From positions 1 through 56,810 of the forward strand of contig CANPYX010000013.1 of NCBI GenBank assembly GCA_947588955.1: a DNA stretch of 56,810 bases. Reading direction: 5' to 3'. Both the position numbers and the translations under genes were made by a program. This DNA comes from an uncultured Oscillospiraceae bacterium. GTDB taxonomy: Bacteria > Bacillota > Clostridia > Oscillospirales > Oscillospiraceae. The notes beneath the pieces are model-generated. The model saw only the letters and a list, made by a program, of their open reading frames with translations, made no database searches and was not told the origin of the DNA. This document shows, in pieces, positions 13,823 to 56,764 of the stretch. Positions within the stretch are counted from its first letter, which is position 1, and each line of letters opens with the position of its first letter.

Positions 13823-14152
13823 TCAGTTCCAAATGCTTCCGTCGCAATCGCACTCGCCCACCGCGCAGTCACAAGTGCCGTTGGGAGTCTCATCCCACAC
13901 GGGCATACCGGTTGGTCTGCTGACCGCTTCCGGTTCTACCTCCTTCTTGACCTGAGCAAGCTTATCCATGGTATTTCCGGAAAGGACCGGCATCCCATCT
14001 TCCTTTACCTGGCTTCCGCATTTAAAGCAAAACCTGGCGGCATCAGGTAACTGCGTTCCGCACTTCGGGCACACGTTGGCTTTTTTCGCGCCGCACATCA
14101 TGCAATACTGTGCCCCCTCAACCATTTCCGCTCCGCATTTTACACATTTCAT
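13823..14152 (-). CDS. Double zinc-ribbon protein with Cys-rich tail, candidate modified precursor
   Basis: A 109-aa protein that starts at MKCVKCG (GGGAGG 7 bases upstream). Two zinc ribbons are visible: C3/C6 with C17/C20, and C28/C31 with C42/C45. A charged linker (about 47-90) follows, then a short tail TCDCAVGECDCDGSIWN carrying C94, C96, C101 and C103 in two CDC pairs. No membrane segment. It is the first gene of a two-gene operon with a radical SAM/SPASM enzyme and has a near-consensus promoter. The layout, a folded leader followed by a compact Cys-rich tail, is what a ribosomally made, radical-SAM-modified precursor might look like. The alternative is an ordinary zinc-ribbon protein next to an enzyme by chance. 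Confidence 0.75.
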   Translation of the reverse strand: MKCVKCGAEMVEGAQYCMMCGAKKANVCPKCGTQLPDAARFCFKCGSQVKEDGMPVLSGNTMDKLAQVKKEVEPEAVSRPTGMPVWDETPNGTCDCAVGECDCDGSIWN

Positions 14153-14265
14153 ATTTTTTCCTCCCAAATTTTCTTTCTATTTTTAAACATTTAATCACAT
14201 ACTTAGGCCTTGGCGGTCTAACTTTTTTTCCTGTTTGGTAATTCCTGCTATGTAACAGCATTTAC

Positions 14266-14294
14266 ATTTTATCCCGCAGCACTTATTTTGTCAA
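14266..14294 (-). promoter_or_regulatory. Strong promoter of the zinc-ribbon/radical SAM operon
   Basis: On the minus strand TTGACA, 17 bases, TAAAAT: perfect -35, 5/6 -10, ideal spacing. The leader to the ATG at 14152 is about 107 bases. The intervening DNA is AT-rich. Confidence 0.75.
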
Positions 14295-14321
14295 TTTCTC
14301 CATAGGGGTAAAAAATGTATT

Positions 14322-14729
14322 TTACGATATGAGCTTTTTGGCGAAGGTGGCGGCGGAGGTCAGGTCGGTTTCATTGGGGCGGCCCTTGTGGAGGAAGGCG
14401 AAGGAGCCGGGGCAGGAGAATTCCTCGTCGGACATGGGGATATTCTTCGCGGCAAGAAGCTTTTCCACGTATTTTTTAGTCGATCTGAGGGAGGCGGAGG
14501 TGCTGAAATTTACTGCCTTTCCCACGGAGACTGTGATGCCGGAGATGAATTTTTTTACCTCGTCGTCCACGTCGAAGGCGTAGGGGGAGCTTCCAAGGAA
14601 CAGAATGTCCACGTCCTCGGTAAGGGGCTGGGAGACGGGCTTTGCCTCTACGCCGACGGCGGAGGATATTGCCTCCGCGAGACGTTTGGTGTTACCGCCT
14701 CTGGAATAGTAACGGATAGCGAGCTTCAT
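14322..14729 (-). CDS. Flavodoxin-like protein
   Basis: A 135-aa flavodoxin-fold protein. MKLAIRYYSRGGNTKRLAEAI carries the phosphate-binding loop (S-x-G-N-T). DILFLGSSPYAFDVDDEVKKF and VNFSTSASLRSTKKYVEKLL follow in flavodoxin order, and CPGSFAFLHKGRPNETDL near the end matches short single-domain flavodoxins. It is expected to bind FMN and carry electrons; the partner is unknown. Start set by AAGGAGG 8 bases upstream. Single gene. Confidence 0.85.
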   Translation of the reverse strand: MKLAIRYYSRGGNTKRLAEAISSAVGVEAKPVSQPLTEDVDILFLGSSPYAFDVDDEVKKFISGITVSVGKAVNFSTSASLRSTKKYVEKLLAAKNIPMSDEEFSCPGSFAFLHKGRPNETDLTSAATFAKKLIS

Positions 14730-14916
14730 TTTTTTGTCCTCCTTGCTTTTAAAATTAACCCATATGTTCATGGTATTTCAATTGGGGTGAATTGTCAAGA
14801 AGGGGGGCGTTTTTTTTGCGCCGCGGCGGTGGAAGGTGAAATTGATGCGGCGCTGAAATAATCTTCTGCCTTATAGTGTAAAATAGAGGAATACCTTATT
14901 TTATACGGAGGCAGTT

Positions 14917-15753
14917 ATGGAAAATAGAACGCTGGACGAGAATTTGCGCGGCTTTGCCGCTTGGCTGCGGCGGGAGGAAAAGAGCGAGGGAACGGTGGAG
15001 AAGTATCTCCGGGACGCGGCGGGGTTTGCCGCGCACATGGGTGGCGCGCCCGTCACAAAGGACGCCGTTGCCGCGTGGCGGGACTGGCTGGTGACGCAGG
15101 GGTACGCGCCGGTCACGGTCAATTCCATGGTGGCGTCGGTGAACGCCCTGCTGCGGTTTTTGGGGCGGGAGGACTGCCGGGTAAAAGCCCTGCGGCTCCA
15201 GCGGAGGGTGTTCCGGGATCGGAGCCGGGAGCTGACGCGAGAGGAGTATGGCCGCCTCCTCGCCTCCGCTGGCGGAAAGTCAAGGCTGGCGCTGCTGATG
15301 GAGACAATTTGCTCCACCGGCATCCGGGTCAGCGAGGTCAGGTATATCACTGTGGAGGCGGCGAGAGAGGGCAGGGCGGAAATCTCCCTCAAGGGGAAGA
15401 TCCGCGTCATCCTTCTCCCCGGCAAGCTCTGCCGGAAGCTTTTGAAATACGCAAAAAAGCAGAAAACCGCCTCCGGCGAGATATTCCTCACAGGAAACGG
15501 CAAGCCCCTGACCCGCGGTCAAATCTGGGCGGAAATGAAGGCCGTGTGCAAAAAAGCGGGGGTGGACCCGCGAAAGGTCTTCCCCCACAATTTAAGACAT
15601 CTATTTGCCCGAACCTTCTACCGCGTGACACGCGACATCGCAAAGCTGGCGGACGTACTGGGTCACAGCTCCATCGAGACCACGCGCATTTACCTCATCT
15701 CCACCGGCGAGGAACACGCGCGGGTGCTGGACCGGCTGGGGCTTGTGAGTTAG
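14917..15753 (+). CDS. Tyrosine recombinase adjoining an invertible segment
   Basis: A 278-aa tyrosine recombinase (XerC/D-like). An N-terminal SAM-like DNA-binding domain (about 1-95) precedes the catalytic domain: R in ETICSTGIRVSEVRYI, K in ISLKGKIRVILL, HNLRHLFARTF with the H-x-x-R pair, LGHSSIETTRIYL with the second H and the nucleophilic Tyr. RBS ACGGAGG. It is immediately followed (its stop codon overlaps the first inverted site) by a 225-base segment flanked by inverted sites and then a surface-protein operon, the arrangement of a dedicated inversion enzyme. A close paralogue lies at 55930-56745. Confidence 0.94.
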   Translation: MENRTLDENLRGFAAWLRREEKSEGTVEKYLRDAAGFAAHMGGAPVTKDAVAAWRDWLVTQGYAPVTVNSMVASVNALLRFLGREDCRVKALRLQRRVFRDRSRELTREEYGRLLASAGGKSRLALLMETICSTGIRVSEVRYITVEAAREGRAEISLKGKIRVILLPGKLCRKLLKYAKKQKTASGEIFLTGNGKPLTRGQIWAEMKAVCKKAGVDPRKVFPHNLRHLFARTFYRVTRDIAKLADVLGHSSIETTRIYLISTGEEHARVLDRLGLVS

Positions 15754-15776
15754 GACAAAATTACTATTTTGTATCC
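15753..15776. repeat. Left inverted recombination site
   Basis: Contains ACAAAATTACTATTTTG (15755-15771), itself a dyad CAAAAT-tact-ATTTTG with flanking GGA/TCC. The same 17 bases occur in reverse complement at the right site. A tyrosine recombinase core with 4-base spacer is a reasonable reading. Confidence 0.7.
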
Positions 15777-15819
15777 TACATAAAACTATATTTAGGGCAC
15801 TAATACCCTACATAGACAG

Positions 15820-15848
15820 ATTTTAGCACGGTGGAAACGAAATGTAAA
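15820..15848 (-). promoter_or_regulatory. Promoter inside the invertible segment
   Basis: On the minus strand TTTACA, 17 bases, TAAAAT: 5/6 at each box, ideal spacing. It presently faces left, away from the surface operon. Confidence 0.7.
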
Positions 15849-15889
15849 GTCTCTAATACAAGAAAATTATAAAAAATTGCACAATTAAC

Positions 15890-15922
15890 AGGACCGCAAA
15901 ACGAAAATTTTTCGTCGGTCCT
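15890..15922. terminator. Hairpin inside the invertible segment
   Basis: AGGACC/GGTCCT outer stem and ACGAAAA/TTTTCGT inner stem, followed by TGTTGT. A weak terminator that could block read-through from the recombinase in the OFF orientation. Confidence 0.5.
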
Positions 15923-15983
15923 TGTTGTCATGTCCAAAATCAGCAAATAAATGGACGTTTACCAATTATGGGCATTATTCCGT

Positions 15984-16025
15984 ATGACACTCAATGCAAA
16001 ATAGTAATTTTGTATTGAGTGTCAT
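15984..16025. repeat. Right inverted recombination site with extended palindrome
   Basis: CAAAATAGTAATTTTG (15997-16012) is the exact reverse complement of the left core. It is embedded in a 42-base palindrome with perfect 12-base arms ATGACACTCAAT and ATTGAGTGTCAT. Confidence 0.7.
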
Positions 16026-16106
16026 AGAAGGAGGCGGTGCGCGACAGAGGGGCGGGAATATTATATTTCTGAATCCAATATAAATTGCAAAAAGGAGGTT
16101 ATTTTA

Positions 16107-17648
16107 ATGAAACGCAAAATCTTTTCAGCGGTGCTGGCGCTTGTCATGCTTCTGACGCTGGCGCCCGTGGCGTTTGCGGCGGAGGACGAGGACGAGCCGG
16201 TTGTCATTCTGCCTGACGGGACGAAGGTGGTGGGGATACCCACGATTGACGCGCCTGAAATGGCTCTGTCCGCCGAGGAAACTGTCATTCCCATTCCTGA
16301 TGAAGATGCCTTTGCGGCTATCACTGCAAGTCAGTGGACAAGCGGTGCAACATTTGAAATTCAGGGCGATTTGAACCTGGAACAGCTTTACATTGACGGA
16401 GAAGTACCAAACTATTATGGTTTAATTAATTTTTTCTATGGAACAATCAGAGGCGTTTGGCTTGAGGATGAGGGACGCTATCCTATCATCAAAGGAATTC
16501 CCAGCGCAAAATGCCTTATTCGGTTGCCTATCGGAGGTACGATAGAAAATCTGATTTTTGATCATGGTACAAATACACCGTACATCACTTTCTTAGCCGG
16601 CGCTTTTACCAACCAGGTTCATACTCTGACATTGAACAACATTACCGTTCAGGGCAACGGTGAAACCGCAACAAGAGTGGGCTCCAATTACTCCCCGTTC
16701 GTTTACACTTGCCCTGCCGGTGGCATTATTATGAACAACTGTGTCAATAAGATAAACATGGTTGGCTCCGGGTACAGCAGCGTCTTCTTTGGATATTACC
16801 CCGCATATTACAGCGAAGGGCACCAAAGGGACATTGAGTTTATAAATTGTACAAACTACGGCAACCTCACCACAAACATGGCAGGAATGTTTTTTGGAAA
16901 TTCCACGGGTCTTGATAATTACATAGGGGACATCAAGCTTGTCATTGAAAACTGCGTGAACAATGGTTCTATCCTCGGAAGAAACAGTGCTTATTACCTC
17001 TGTGCCGCCGCTGCGAATGAGGGCGAATTTTCCGACGGTTCGACCTCCGGAAAGATCGAGGATGTCTTGGTAAAAGGGAGCGAATCTCCTTATGCCGCAC
17101 AGTTTGAAGACATTCAAAAAATTACAGGCACTCCCAATGTAATCGGCAAAGCTCCAACCCTTGAGGGTTTTTCGGCTATATGGAATTCCGACAACACGAT
17201 TTCTTTCACTCCGGCAACGAACAACGAAGAAGTAGCCTATTATAGAGTTCGAGTGGGTTCATATTTACACGCTTGGGATACTGAAAATAACAAATTTTTC
17301 GGCACATATCTTTATACGGTAGAACAGCGATATAACTCTGATGCCGTAACGGGTATGGAGAGCGTGAAAGCGGAGCTGATGGCATATGGCTTTGCTGACA
17401 GCGATTATGGGCCTCAAACCGAAGTTGTGCTTTCATATCCTGTATGTGATGTCAATGGAGAAAAATTCTATTTTATACAAAATACAGACGGAAACATTTT
17501 CCAGTATTATGCTACAGGTAATCTGAACGACGAAGGGACGCCCGTAGATAATATGGCCGTTCCGCCGGCTGTTGTTATAGTGACTGCCTATGGCGTCGAT
17601 AACAATACGCTTCAAGCCATTTGGCTGACAAAACCGGAGGTGCAATGA
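16107..17648 (+). CDS. Secreted protein with repetitive Asn/Gly-rich body, phase-variable candidate
   Basis: A 513-aa exported protein. The signal peptide MKRKIFSAVLALVMLLTLAP ends at about AFA-A. The middle (about 150-300) has short strand-turn units with recurring N and G (TLTLNNITVQGNG, IIMNNCVNKINMVG, IEFINCTNYGNLTTN, LVIENCVNNGSILG), which reads like a right-handed beta-helix of the pectate-lyase-like type. No anchor is visible, so it may be released or held by the SLH partner. RBS AAAGGAGG. Its TGA overlaps the next gene's ATG (ATGATG). It lies 81 bases beyond the right inverted site; no promoter is visible between. Confidence 0.85.
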   Translation: MKRKIFSAVLALVMLLTLAPVAFAAEDEDEPVVILPDGTKVVGIPTIDAPEMALSAEETVIPIPDEDAFAAITASQWTSGATFEIQGDLNLEQLYIDGEVPNYYGLINFFYGTIRGVWLEDEGRYPIIKGIPSAKCLIRLPIGGTIENLIFDHGTNTPYITFLAGAFTNQVHTLTLNNITVQGNGETATRVGSNYSPFVYTCPAGGIIMNNCVNKINMVGSGYSSVFFGYYPAYYSEGHQRDIEFINCTNYGNLTTNMAGMFFGNSTGLDNYIGDIKLVIENCVNNGSILGRNSAYYLCAAAANEGEFSDGSTSGKIEDVLVKGSESPYAAQFEDIQKITGTPNVIGKAPTLEGFSAIWNSDNTISFTPATNNEEVAYYRVRVGSYLHAWDTENNKFFGTYLYTVEQRYNSDAVTGMESVKAELMAYGFADSDYGPQTEVVLSYPVCDVNGEKFYFIQNTDGNIFQYYATGNLNDEGTPVDNMAVPPAVVIVTAYGVDNNTLQAIWLTKPEVQ

Positions 17649-20614
17649 TGAAGAGTTCCGTTTTGCACAAATCATTTATCGCCTCAGCATTAATGGTTGT
17701 ACTGTTGCTTTCATTTTTCGCTCCAACTATAACTGTATACGCGGCAAGTGACCCGAAACCTAATTTCACAGTTACTGGTACGTTTAAGCAATATGTTTGG
17801 TATCCAAATAAAGAGGAGGGAAGTAGAAAGGGGTTTGAAAGTCCGGAAGCGACAATGTCACTACCCAATAGCGCACTACCCTCAAACAATCTGCAATCGA
17901 TTCTTGAGTGCATTGAAGCGGGAAAGTTTGAGGGGCAAGTAAGTGGGAGTGGGGTTAATGCTTTTCAGAATGTATATGAGCTGAACAAAGACGCTCCCAT
18001 TTCAATAACTTTTAGCACAAGGAAACAATATAACGATTATGGTAATGTTGTCAACACAATCAACAAAAAGGTGGTATTTACAAGAAACAAGGGAGAAGCC
18101 GAACTCGGTGCGCTTGACGGCGATGACGTTATCACCATCTACAATGGAAGTGATGACGGAATTACGATAACGTCTACCCCGAGCCGCAAATTTCAAGCAG
18201 CAGATTTGGCGACCTACCCCCCGGAGGTAAATGAAATCAATTTCCAAAAAGGCTTGGAAATTAACGGAGGGGCAAGCGTAAGTATCGTGTCGGAAGTTAC
18301 GCCAAGTGACAAGGCATCCGCCATATCCACACACTGCCTTAAGATAAAAATCGGCGGCGGAGAAGGCGAGGCAAAGCTTGCCATAAATGACGGCACACTC
18401 AATATCAGCGGATATAATTTTGATTGTTATAGCAGCCATAAGGCAACATATAATTTCTTAACCAGCACATATCTGATTTTTGAGCAAGGGTCATCGATGA
18501 CAATTGGTAAGGACGGCAGTGTTACCGTAGCCGGTGCTCAGGTCGAGGATACGCAAGACAGTAATAACACCATTATTGAAAATGCAGGTTCTTTGACGAT
18601 TACAGAGGGTAAAAAGCAAGCGCCCTCCAATGTACTTACCAAAAGCAGCAATTCTGCCGTTAAGTGTTCAGACGGTTCCAGCCTGACCATCACAGGCAAA
18701 AGCGCGGTCAAGAGCGGCGAAGGTGGCAACAAGGCTGTGGAGCTTGCCCCCGGCGCGAAGGTGACCACCGACGCGGTGAAGGATCTGACCGTGGCGGAGG
18801 ACATGGTAGAGGCGTATGTGGACAACAACGGCAAGGTGATCCAGAAAGCCGACGAGAACGATCTGCCTGCCTTTACGGAGCCTGTTGAGGTAGAAGCCGA
18901 TGTAAAAGACGGCGTCGTGGACAAGGACGACAAGTTGAAAGAGGCCGCAGGAAATGTCGGCGCTGAGCTTCCCACAGACGCGCAGACCGCCGCCGCTCAT
19001 GAATGGGCTCATGACAAAGCGGATGAGGCGAAGAAGAAGCTGGGAGAAACTGAGGAGGATGTCAACATTTACGTCCTGACCACCGTAGAAACTACGGTGG
19101 AGGATTTCAAAGCCGACACCGCCTTGACGCTCGATATCACGCCCCGTTATGAGGTCATCGCCACCACGGCGGGGACAAAGGACGGGATACACCTTGAAGC
19201 AGAGAGCGGTCAGGAGAAAAACGCCGTCTTGTTGGATGGAGGGGCTCTTGAGGTGAACCGCCCGGTGGAAATGGTGATCCCCATTCCGAACGCCTTGTAT
19301 CACACCGTTGGAACCGAGGCAACGCCGAGCTTTGTGGTCCTCCACGAGCATGAGGGAAAGGTTTATCTCTACCACGCGACATATAGCTCTACCAGTGATG
19401 TAGGCGCGCATATCACATTTACCAACGAGCACGGCTTCTCCAAGTTTACCGTTATCGTCGTAAGGCAGGGCAGTCTCTCAAATCTGACCGCCTCCGTGGG
19501 AAGTATGGAGACGTTTGACCCCAGCAAGGAAGAAAAGTCTTACACCGTTAACGTCCCCTACAGCGTTTCCGAGCTGGAGCTCACCGCAACGACGGCGGTC
19601 CAGGACGATGAGGTCACGGCGAAGCTGGGCGAAGGTGAAGACGCAATTGTACTTTCACCCGAACAGGATGAAACCGTTACCGACAAGGACGTTTACACGA
19701 TTTCTGTTCCCGACCTTGCGGTTGGCGACAACACCGTCACTATCACCGTGACGCACGGCGAGACCGAGACCACCTACACCGTCACCATCAACCGCGCGGC
19801 ATATGTGCCGCCTGTGCCGCCGTCCTACACCGTTTCCGCTGAGGAAGCGGAGAACGCCGAGGTTGAGCTTTCCACCGAGAAGGCGACAGCCGGCGACTCC
19901 GTCACCGTCACCGTCACCCCCGCCGAGAACTTCCACGTCTCCGGCGTGACCGTCACCGGCGCCGACGGGAAGGAGATTACCGTTGTGGATAACGGCGACG
20001 GCACCTTCACCTTCACAATGCCCTCCGGCGGCGTGACCGTCAAGGCTGAGACCTTCAAATGCCCCTCCGTCGAATACACCGACATCGACGTTACAGAGTG
20101 GTATCACGATTACGTCGACTACGCCATAACCCATGACCTCATGGACGGCTTCGGCGACGGCGTATTCGCCCCCGAAAAGACCGTGACCCGCGCTCAGATG
20201 GCGGGTATCCTCTGGAACCTTGAGGGTCAGCCGGTGGTCAACTACCTGATGACCTTCACCGATGTTCCCGATGGTAAGTGGTACACCGAGGCAATCCGCT
20301 GGGCGGCGAGCGAGGGCATCATCTCCGGCTTCGGCGACGACACCTTCAGGCCCGAAGACATCATTACTCGTGAGCAGATGGCGGCGATGCTGTACTTCTA
20401 CGAGGAGTACAAGAACGGTGACCACACCGTTGATGCTGAGCTGACCTTCACCGACTCCGGCGAGGTCTCCTCCTGGGCGAACGAGGCCGTTGTGTGGTGC
20501 GTCGGCAAGGACCTGATCCACGGCAAGGGCGACAACGCCTTTGACCCGCGCGGCACCTCCATAAGAGCCCAGCTCGCGACCCTCCTGGCGCTCTACGACC
20601 AGATGGACAAATAA
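17648..20614 (+). CDS. S-layer-anchored surface protein with cadherin-like domain and three SLH repeats
   Basis: A 988-aa cell-surface protein. The signal peptide starts MKSSVLHKSFIASALMVVLL and ends near VYAAS. A long N-terminal region (about 35-600) has possible beta-solenoid stretches (LAINDGTLNISGYNFD, GSLTITEGKK). Then comes a cadherin-like beta-sandwich (NLTASVGSMETFDPSKEEKS to YTVTINRA), a Val/Thr-rich module, and three SLH domains at the C-terminus: TDIDVTEWYHDYVDYAI, FTDVPDGKWYTEAIRWAA, FTDSGEVSSWANEAVVWC. SLH domains bind pyruvylated secondary wall polymers. Start chosen at 17648 for GGAGG spacing of 7; the ATG at 17645 is possible. Operon partner of the preceding secreted protein. 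Confidence 0.92.
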   Translation: MKSSVLHKSFIASALMVVLLLSFFAPTITVYAASDPKPNFTVTGTFKQYVWYPNKEEGSRKGFESPEATMSLPNSALPSNNLQSILECIEAGKFEGQVSGSGVNAFQNVYELNKDAPISITFSTRKQYNDYGNVVNTINKKVVFTRNKGEAELGALDGDDVITIYNGSDDGITITSTPSRKFQAADLATYPPEVNEINFQKGLEINGGASVSIVSEVTPSDKASAISTHCLKIKIGGGEGEAKLAINDGTLNISGYNFDCYSSHKATYNFLTSTYLIFEQGSSMTIGKDGSVTVAGAQVEDTQDSNNTIIENAGSLTITEGKKQAPSNVLTKSSNSAVKCSDGSSLTITGKSAVKSGEGGNKAVELAPGAKVTTDAVKDLTVAEDMVEAYVDNNGKVIQKADENDLPAFTEPVEVEADVKDGVVDKDDKLKEAAGNVGAELPTDAQTAAAHEWAHDKADEAKKKLGETEEDVNIYVLTTVETTVEDFKADTALTLDITPRYEVIATTAGTKDGIHLEAESGQEKNAVLLDGGALEVNRPVEMVIPIPNALYHTVGTEATPSFVVLHEHEGKVYLYHATYSSTSDVGAHITFTNEHGFSKFTVIVVRQGSLSNLTASVGSMETFDPSKEEKSYTVNVPYSVSELELTATTAVQDDEVTAKLGEGEDAIVLSPEQDETVTDKDVYTISVPDLAVGDNTVTITVTHGETETTYTVTINRAAYVPPVPPSYTVSAEEAENAEVELSTEKATAGDSVTVTVTPAENFHVSGVTVTGADGKEITVVDNGDGTFTFTMPSGGVTVKAETFKCPSVEYTDIDVTEWYHDYVDYAITHDLMDGFGDGVFAPEKTVTRAQMAGILWNLEGQPVVNYLMTFTDVPDGKWYTEAIRWAASEGIISGFGDDTFRPEDIITREQMAAMLYFYEEYKNGDHTVDAELTFTDSGEVSSWANEAVVWCVGKDLIHGKGDNAFDPRGTSIRAQLATLLALYDQMDK

Positions 20615-55929: not shown

Positions 55930-56745
55930 ATGGAAAAGGAACTTATGGGGTTTGAGGCGGAGCTGAGGGGGAAGGAGAGGTCTCAGGGGACACGGGAGCA
56001 GTACCTTCGCGCGGTCGCGAGGTTTTTGACGGATATGGCAGACGCACCCTTGACCCACGAGGCTGCGGCGGAGTGGCGAGACGGGTTGTTGCGAGAGGGA
56101 TACGCCGCGGCAACCGTCAACGCCATGGTCGCGGCGGTGAACGCCTATTTCGACTATATCCACCGCCCCGAACTGCGTGTAAAGGCCATTCGCGTCCAGC
56201 GCAGCGCCTTCAGGGAGCAGGCGAGGGAGCTTACCCGCGAGGAATACGAGCGCCTCCTGGACGCCGCCTCCGAGCGCCTGAGACTAATCATGGAAACCAT
56301 ATGCTCCACAGGAATCCGCGTCTCCGAGCTCAGATATATAACCGTCGAAGCCGCGAGAGCAGGGGAGGCGCGCATAAGTCTGAAAGGGAAGCTCAGGACC
56401 ATACTCATGCCGTGCAAGCTCTGCCGGAAGCTCTTGAAGTACGCAAGGAAAAAGAACACCGCGTCCGGCGAGATATTCCTCACCGGGCGCGGTAAGCCCC
56501 TGACTCGCCGCCAAATCTGGGCGGAGATGAAAGCTTTAGCCAAAAAAACAGGCGTGGAGGCGACTAAAATCTTCCCCCACAACCTGAGACATTTATTCGC
56601 TCGGACCTTTTACCGCGTCAGTCGCGATATCGTAAAGCTTGCCGATGTCCTCGGACATTCTTCCATTGAGACCACCCGCATCTACCTCATCACCACCGGC
56701 GCCGAACACCGCCGCGCGCTGGACAAGATGAGGCTTGTTATTTAA
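55930..56745 (+). CDS. Tyrosine recombinase, paralogue of the inversion enzyme
   Basis: A 271-aa tyrosine recombinase closely alike to the one at 14917-15753 (shared stretches such as ICSTGIRVSELRYITVEAAR, KLCRKLLKYARKKNTASGEI, HNLRHLFARTFYRVSRDIVK). The catalytic R, K, H-x-x-R, H and Tyr are all in place (GIRVSE, ISLKGKLRT, HNLRHLF, LGHSSIETTRIYLI). RBS AAAGGAGC. It is followed directly by a site resembling the first recombinase's left inverted site. Confidence 0.94.
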   Translation: MEKELMGFEAELRGKERSQGTREQYLRAVARFLTDMADAPLTHEAAAEWRDGLLREGYAAATVNAMVAAVNAYFDYIHRPELRVKAIRVQRSAFREQARELTREEYERLLDAASERLRLIMETICSTGIRVSELRYITVEAARAGEARISLKGKLRTILMPCKLCRKLLKYARKKNTASGEIFLTGRGKPLTRRQIWAEMKALAKKTGVEATKIFPHNLRHLFARTFYRVSRDIVKLADVLGHSSIETTRIYLITTGAEHRRALDKMRLVI

Positions 56746-56747
56746 TC

Positions 56748-56764
56748 ACAAAATAAATATTTCG
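56748..56764. repeat. Recombination-site-like sequence after the second recombinase
   Basis: ACAAAATAAATATTTCG, 3 bases past the stop: same spacing and shape as ACAAAATTACTATTTTG after the first recombinase. Its partner would lie beyond the window. Confidence 0.45.

Follow-up and report, generated by a model that had tools for sequence, protein, structure and literature searches.

The stretch of DNA analysed here, called the window in what follows, comprises 56,810 nucleotides and constitutes contig C13 of a 2.56-Mb assembly with 58 contigs, obtained from an uncultured gut bacterium of the Oscillospiraceae. In its first half the window carries a tyrosine recombinase gene, a short segment bounded by inverted repeats and a two-gene operon, and a second recombinase gene of the same family is located close to its right end. 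The features considered in this work are the following:

14917..15753, plus strand: tyrosine recombinase of 278 aa, presumed inverting enzyme (Phage_integrase PF00589 and SAM-like N-domain PF02899)
15755..16013, no strand: candidate invertible segment of 259 bp, both sites included (two other loci of the same genome carry a like segment in opposite orientations)
15755..15774, no strand: predicted left recombination site (core CAAAAT-TACT-ATTTTG, 15756-15771)
15793..15810, minus strand: short terminator-like inverted repeat just past the presumed transcription start (terminator scan)
15820..15848, minus strand: predicted promoter TTTACA-N17-TAAAAT with extended -10, leftward (OFF for the operon), called by consensus only, in a conserved block of 12 aligned loci
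15890..15922, no strand: hairpin AGGACCG...CGGTCCT behind the promoter (z -3.7 on the plus strand, -2.7 on the minus strand)
15983..16026, no strand: palindrome of 44 nt that encloses the right site as the segment now stands (stem of 20 bp, -26.6 kcal/mol)
15994..16013, no strand: predicted right recombination site (core CAAAAT-AGTA-ATTTTG, 15997-16012)
16092..16098, plus strand: ribosome-binding site AAGGAGG of the operon, read directly
16107..17648, plus strand: secreted protein of 513 aa, first gene of the operon (signal-peptide-like start, without Pfam match)
17651..20614, plus strand: surface protein, second gene of the operon (three SLH domains, one cadherin-like domain)
55930..56745, plus strand: second family recombinase, 68% identical to the first
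56749..56764, no strand: left site of the second switch, CAAAATAAATATTTCG, 3 nt after the recombinase stop

The product of the first recombinase gene matches the Phage_integrase domain with an E value of 9.6e-23 and contains R137, K161, H224, R227, H250 and Y259, which we take to be its catalytic residues. Among 98 family members these positions are kept in 96 (R137), 97 (K161 and Y259) or all 98 cases (H224, R227 and H250). The best curated models matched were XerA, XerD and XerC, and Xer structures were also recovered, with scores below the equivalog cut-offs (XerA, 128 against 220 bits; XerD, 106.2 against 329.6; XerC, 95.7 against 335.15). The cut-offs of two tyrosine-type DNA invertase models, NF007370 and NF007371, presumably fim-like, were not reached either (29.8 against 221 bits and 22.9 against 222, respectively).

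The original prediction had this gene ending at one copy of a 17-base inverted repeat, and indeed the stop codon of the open reading frame 14917-15753 lies one base short of the left site. The repeat itself exists and is exact, pairing 15755-15771 with 15997-16013; the right copy had been placed one base off, at 15996-16012. Taken at their full length, the left arm (15755-15774) and the right arm (15994-16013) are complementary at 19 of 20 positions. Both sites are near-palindromic, of the form CAAAAT-N4-ATTTTG; their asymmetric centre is TACT in the left site and stands inverted, as AGTA, in the right one. In tyrosine recombinases, an asymmetric centre sets the direction of the site. In the whole window there are two exact copies of the 16-nt core, and when up to 3 mismatches were accepted 4 matches were obtained against 0.28 expected. 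None of 1140 Markov-shuffled regions contained an exact inverted repeat of at least 16 nt. The enclosed DNA is AT-rich, as had been described, and 93 bp separate the right site from the start codon of the operon at 16107.

Promoters and terminators were scanned on both strands, the promoters over 14700-16200 with a consensus score out of 12. Six promoter-like sites were found against 1.1 expected, all of them on the minus strand; the absence of any plus-strand site in this range agrees with the earlier claim that no clear promoter stands between the right site and 16107. Two sites scored 10/12, at 15848-15820 and at 14798-14770 (the latter outside the segment), and only the former has a TG-extended -10. 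Weaker sites (9/12) lie inside the segment at 15994-15965 and 15936-15907, and a further weak one, at 16025-15998, overlaps its right end. The best promoter within the segment does then point leftward, away from the operon, and by promoter consensus the orientation had been correctly called OFF. Since this promoter faces the recombinase, the operon 16107-20614 is left without an evident promoter.

Several structures that could form in RNA accompany the promoter. The terminator scan gave four terminator-like sites on the minus strand against 2.0 expected, namely 15810-15793 and three within the recombinase gene. The hairpin AGGACCG...CGGTCCT is kept in 11 of 12 aligned loci and may possibly shield the operon as an insulator; we propose this role with reserve because the terminator scan did not flag the hairpin. 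The palindrome around the right site has a z of -10.2, and inversion of the segment would break it. No Rfam match was found within 14000-17000 at E<=0.1. We also considered the extended palindrome as a marker of the OFF state across the family, and 89 of 98 loci could be scored. Only a weak trend was seen: among 62 OFF loci the present orientation gave a better palindrome than the inverted one in 23 and a worse one in 18, and among 13 ON loci it was better in 3 and worse in 9. It is only close to the window's locus that the effect becomes strong (L001, L002, L015 and L044-L047; 7-12 of 12 pairs against 4-5), and the marker was discarded.

The source genome contains six family recombinases at E<=1e-60, in addition to one fragment at a contig end. 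A search with the pattern RCAAAATNNNNATTTTG gave nine places in this genome, corresponding to four pairs and one single site (on C2), and a control pattern gave none. The pairs were found on C1, C13, C32 and C37, and a recombinase on C25, 44-45% identical, has its own site pair with CATTAT arms. The most informative comparison is that between C1 and C37, which are near copies of one locus, with left flanks 95.0% and right flanks 95.5% identical. Their 150-bp inner segment is 96.7% identical when one copy is inverted and 49.4% when both are read directly, and therefore such segments do invert between such sites. The promoter of this pair, TTGATA-N17-TATACT, is directed toward the downstream SLH-type gene in C37 (ON) and toward the recombinase in C1 (OFF). 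By promoter consensus, C13, C32, C1 and C25 were called OFF and C37 ON. Of the window's second switch, the recombinase, the left site and the next 46 nt are present before the contig stops; the start of its segment resembles that of a locus called OFF (L052).

Of 34 genomes of the genus, 19 contain relatives of the window's recombinase at E<=1e-60, one of them as many as 15; in the taxonomic family, relatives were found in 78 of 300 sampled genomes. Named genomes gave 186 relatives, of which the best 80 were retained: 32 of these 80 are titled Oscillospiraceae, and the isolates among them include Pseudoflavonifractor, Agathobaculum, Butyricicoccus, Neglectibacter and Schaedlerella. Cultured carriers of the family are, for instance, Neglectibacter timonensis (L154) and Agathobaculum sp. 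Marseille-P7918 (L160). The word "Lapin" in many isolate names suggests the rabbit gut as source.

From 189 loci we removed exact duplicates and 24 rows with less than 300 nt after the stop codon, which left 114 distinct loci; because they are best matches, a non-random sample with several from one genome, they are not independent. An exact inverted repeat of at least 12 nt lies close behind the recombinase in 98 of the 114 loci, against 4 of 1140 Markov-shuffled regions. In 90 of these 98 the repeat starts within 20 nt of the stop codon, and in 91 the segment spans 200-340 bp. Regarding the 16 loci that lack an exact repeat of 12 nt, four (L114, L124, L036 and L150) have an imperfect one (15-16/18) within 300 bp, and L165 has a 17/18 pair 1351 bp apart; in the other 11 the best repeat (12-14/18) was indistinguishable from shuffled sequence (12-15). 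The site arms go with the recombinase in the ten members that are at most 51% identical, nine of which have CATTAT arms and one CATAAT. Over the whole set the covariation between recombinase and site is weak (Mantel r 0.17, with 12 of 1000 permutations as high).

Two loci of one genome (G024, L050 and L051) have three recombination sites in a row, the third being partly cut by the contig end in L050. Their arrays combine a promoter segment and a segment of about 50 bp in different order and direction, resembling a small shufflon. In addition, a contig ends within 100 nt after the recombinase match in 6 of 78 named loci (L100, L105, L123, L138, L149 and L151) and before it in none of the 78, and within 400 nt there are 10 ends after the match against 6 before it. 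It is only suggestive that these ends mark mixed orientation in the assembly, given that repeats between copies could have the same effect.

Orientation was called by promoter consensus in the 98 loci with exact repeats, which gave 67 OFF, 16 ON and 15 unclear. The called promoters occupy a fixed place: 74 of the 83 lie between 25 and 60 nt from the segment end, against 215 of 1197 in shuffled segments. Their spacing is 17 nt in 77 of 83, a value that the score itself favours. With limits on position and score, 58 OFF and 13 ON remained, whereas the shuffled control had no direction bias (605 against 592). On a tree of the 83 recombinases the orientation labels require 14 changes and shuffled ones 14.9 (no more than 14 in 151 of 500 shuffles), and thus orientation carries no lineage signal.

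Reversed pairs of loci occur between species as well. L030 and L040 are 95.7% identical in the left flank and 67.0% in the right flank, and their inner segments are 78.7% identical inverted against 48.3% direct. L121 is reversed with respect to L098, L102, L117 and L125. L021 has a recombinase 82% identical to that of the window; it is ON and stands reversed with respect to L018, L032, L085, L163 and L164. Inversion is then visible between orthologous as well as paralogous loci. Sixteen loci combine a repeat with a recombinase that is 80% or more identical to the window's; 13 of them are OFF, 1 is ON (L021) and 2 are unclear. The 12 loci with window-like segments comprise 11 OFF and 1 unclear, a set in which selection by same-strand similarity favours one orientation. 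The sole window-like segment that seems inverted (L077, G018:C92; 61% inverted against 45% direct) follows a recombinase frame broken into two pieces; it apparently stands in the ON direction, perhaps as a switch frozen ON or through a sequencing error.

Taken together, the locus is very probably a self-contained ON/OFF promoter switch, flipped by the adjacent recombinase and controlling the surface-protein operon. What we took to characterize an inverton was found: a short segment bounded by exact inverted repeats, an internal promoter that, judged by consensus and conserved position alone, faces the gene in just one of the two orientations, an adjacent recombinase with a complete active site, and both orientations within the family. 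The phase-variable invertible promoter of the original prediction is supported by the reversal between C1 and C37, the reversed pairs between species (L021 among them), the layout kept in 98 of 114 loci, the fixed place of the promoter and the unclustered orientation. We infer from sequence that the adjacent recombinase acts on the two flanking sites, that the window segment 15755-16013 flips, and that operon expression follows its orientation. In the mechanism that we propose, the recombinase 14917-15753 would recognise both near-palindromic sites and invert the 259-bp segment by site-specific recombination. In the present orientation the extended -10 promoter would be turned to the recombinase; after inversion it would read rightward, the -10 then lying within the segment some 48 nt from the right site, and the operon would be transcribed (ON). 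Behind the promoter, the hairpin could act as an insulator for the operon.

Other readings of the locus were weighed. The segment could be invertible but worked in trans by another recombinase of the same genome, the adjacent gene not being the main enzyme. The six family recombinases of the source genome have very similar site arms, the same site centre in C1 and C37 makes cross-action possible, and the three-site arrays of G024 suggest exchange between copies. However, all four site pairs found by pattern are directly behind a family recombinase, the layout is kept in 98 of 114 loci, and the TACT centre of the window's locus is found nowhere else in the source genome with the RCAAAATNNNNATTTTG pattern; action in trans as the main route is, in our opinion, unlikely. 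It is also quite unlikely that the switch is dead, that is, that sites and recombinase persist around a segment fixed in its present orientation. The 11 OFF calls in 12 window-like segments would fit such a state (with the selection for one orientation noted above), and L077 indicates that recombinases of the window's group can break. Nevertheless, the window's recombinase is intact with its catalytic residues, its sites are exact copies over 17 nt, and L021 is reversed with respect to its relatives.

Two more readings dispense with a promoter switch altogether. The inverted repeats could be mere RNA hairpins or terminators around an ordinary intergenic region, a view to which the 20-bp hairpin folded by the right site in the present orientation lends something; but the right site is absent from the list of the terminator scan, and in paralogues a segment with like repeats at its ends occurs in both directions, which makes this reading extremely improbable. 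The site pair could also be what delimits a mobile element, integrated or excised, that is served by a Xer-like recombinase, as the best matches to Xer models and structures and the layout of the sites, which resembles that of dif sites, might indicate. Here it should be considered that the sites are inverted and not direct repeats, and recombination between inverted sites inverts the DNA between them; furthermore, a span of 200-340 bp in 91 of 98 loci is short for cargo. We find a mobile element hardly credible.

Returning to the promoter switch, its OFF state might be a self-locking latch, in which the reversed promoter would send an antisense transcript into the 3' end of the recombinase gene and lower recombinase output. 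If this were true, OFF would be stable and ON would soon revert to OFF, which would explain the roughly 4:1 excess of OFF (67 against 16, or 58 against 13 under the strict limits) and also why the recombinase abuts the segment tail-first (90 of 98 loci have the start of the repeat no more than 20 nt behind the stop). In genomes with up to 15 family recombinases, the switches would in that case keep a reserve of surface proteins, pili and envelope genes, largely silent. Against this, the four terminator-like sites in the antisense direction might cut the antisense transcript short, which lowers the odds, and we regard the latch as a rather doubtful idea. In any case, the strong OFF bias constitutes a testable puzzle.

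The genes under control of these switches were also considered. At the window, the predicted secreted/SLH operon starting at 16107 was borne out, with a signal-peptide-like N-terminus in the first product followed by the three-SLH protein (17651-20614); proteins 60% and 57% identical to the 513-aa product lie downstream of the switches L046 and L053. A domain scan was made on 73 proteins, that is, 72 of 95 automatically chosen first open reading frames plus the window's second gene, the omitted frames being seemingly short, redundant or in the wrong frame. Among 25 of the 49 domain families, those listed, there were 12 SLH, 10 DUF4379, 10 Flg_new_2 repeats, 4 prepilin N_methyl, at most 7 integrase, 1 DegT and 1 GtrII. 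The genes behind the switches are not limited to SLH proteins: prepilins, proteins with repeats, zinc-finger proteins, second recombinases and single polysaccharide genes are also among them. The start GFTLVEL occurs in 6 of the 95 downstream frames, and six loci with 44-51% identical recombinases and CATTAT-type sites (L012, L031, L038, L078, L079 and L081) stand before prepilin-like genes; therefore, phase variation may extend to type IV pilin genes in these bacteria.

Short invertible promoters worked by tyrosine recombinases are known from other bacteria. One of them is fimS of Escherichia coli, as described in the accessible part of the source (PMC9993118). The window's locus shares both traits with it, but its recombinase scores far below the tyrosine-type DNA invertase cut-offs (29.8 against 221 bits). 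The fim system uses two tyrosine-type recombinases. In Clostridioides difficile, a single tyrosine recombinase, RecV, serves several switches, among them cwpV and flagellar ones, according to the available portions of three papers (PMC7446863, PMC5903667, PMC2784873). The cwpV precedent named in the original prediction holds insofar as that species, also of the Clostridia, has a surface gene with upstream DNA inverted by a tyrosine recombinase; it is a loose one insofar as RecV inverts several switches, while here, comparing with what those portions describe, each recombinase abuts its own segment. In Bacteroides, the accessible text of an inverton survey places invertible promoters near surface genes, with neighbouring invertases beyond the reach of the promoter (PMC11892184). 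The proximity to surface genes is common to both cases, but phylum and promoter motif differ, as far as that text goes. One of the C. difficile sources, in its available part, also mentions inversion signatures in 14 Clostridia samples and a recombinase beside the switch in most characterised systems (PMC5903667).

The nearest lead is inverton group 139, with 33 invertons, 32 of them in Clostridia, tied to tyrosine-type invertase group 35 in the portion of the survey at hand (PMC11892184). A member from Intestinimonas butyriciproducens is given there with 14-nt repeats, a length of 255 bp by the printed coordinates, and orientation shifts in culture (PMC11892184). Group 139 may well be the same family as the window's switch, being matched by description and not by repeat motif; the likeness (a Clostridia host, a nearby tyrosine-type recombinase, 255 bp against 259 bp here) is unspecific. 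Nothing near the coordinates of the I. butyriciproducens switch was present among the matches listed. Beyond what the accessible description of the group offers, the present analysis adds that the segment has a fixed place close to the recombinase stop codon, where the promoter lies within it, and that OFF predominates. In the literature on this family in Oscillospiraceae, searched mostly without subscription papers or supplements, only that general survey was found. Tyrosine-recombinase invertons are a kind already published, and hence only the locus and the detailed anatomy of the family are additions. Since enzyme, sites, promoter and cargo stand together in a fixed order, a single assembly is enough to recognise these switches, with no need of reads, and a well-bounded family with one recombinase per switch, in Oscillospiraceae and other Clostridia, is added to the known invertons.
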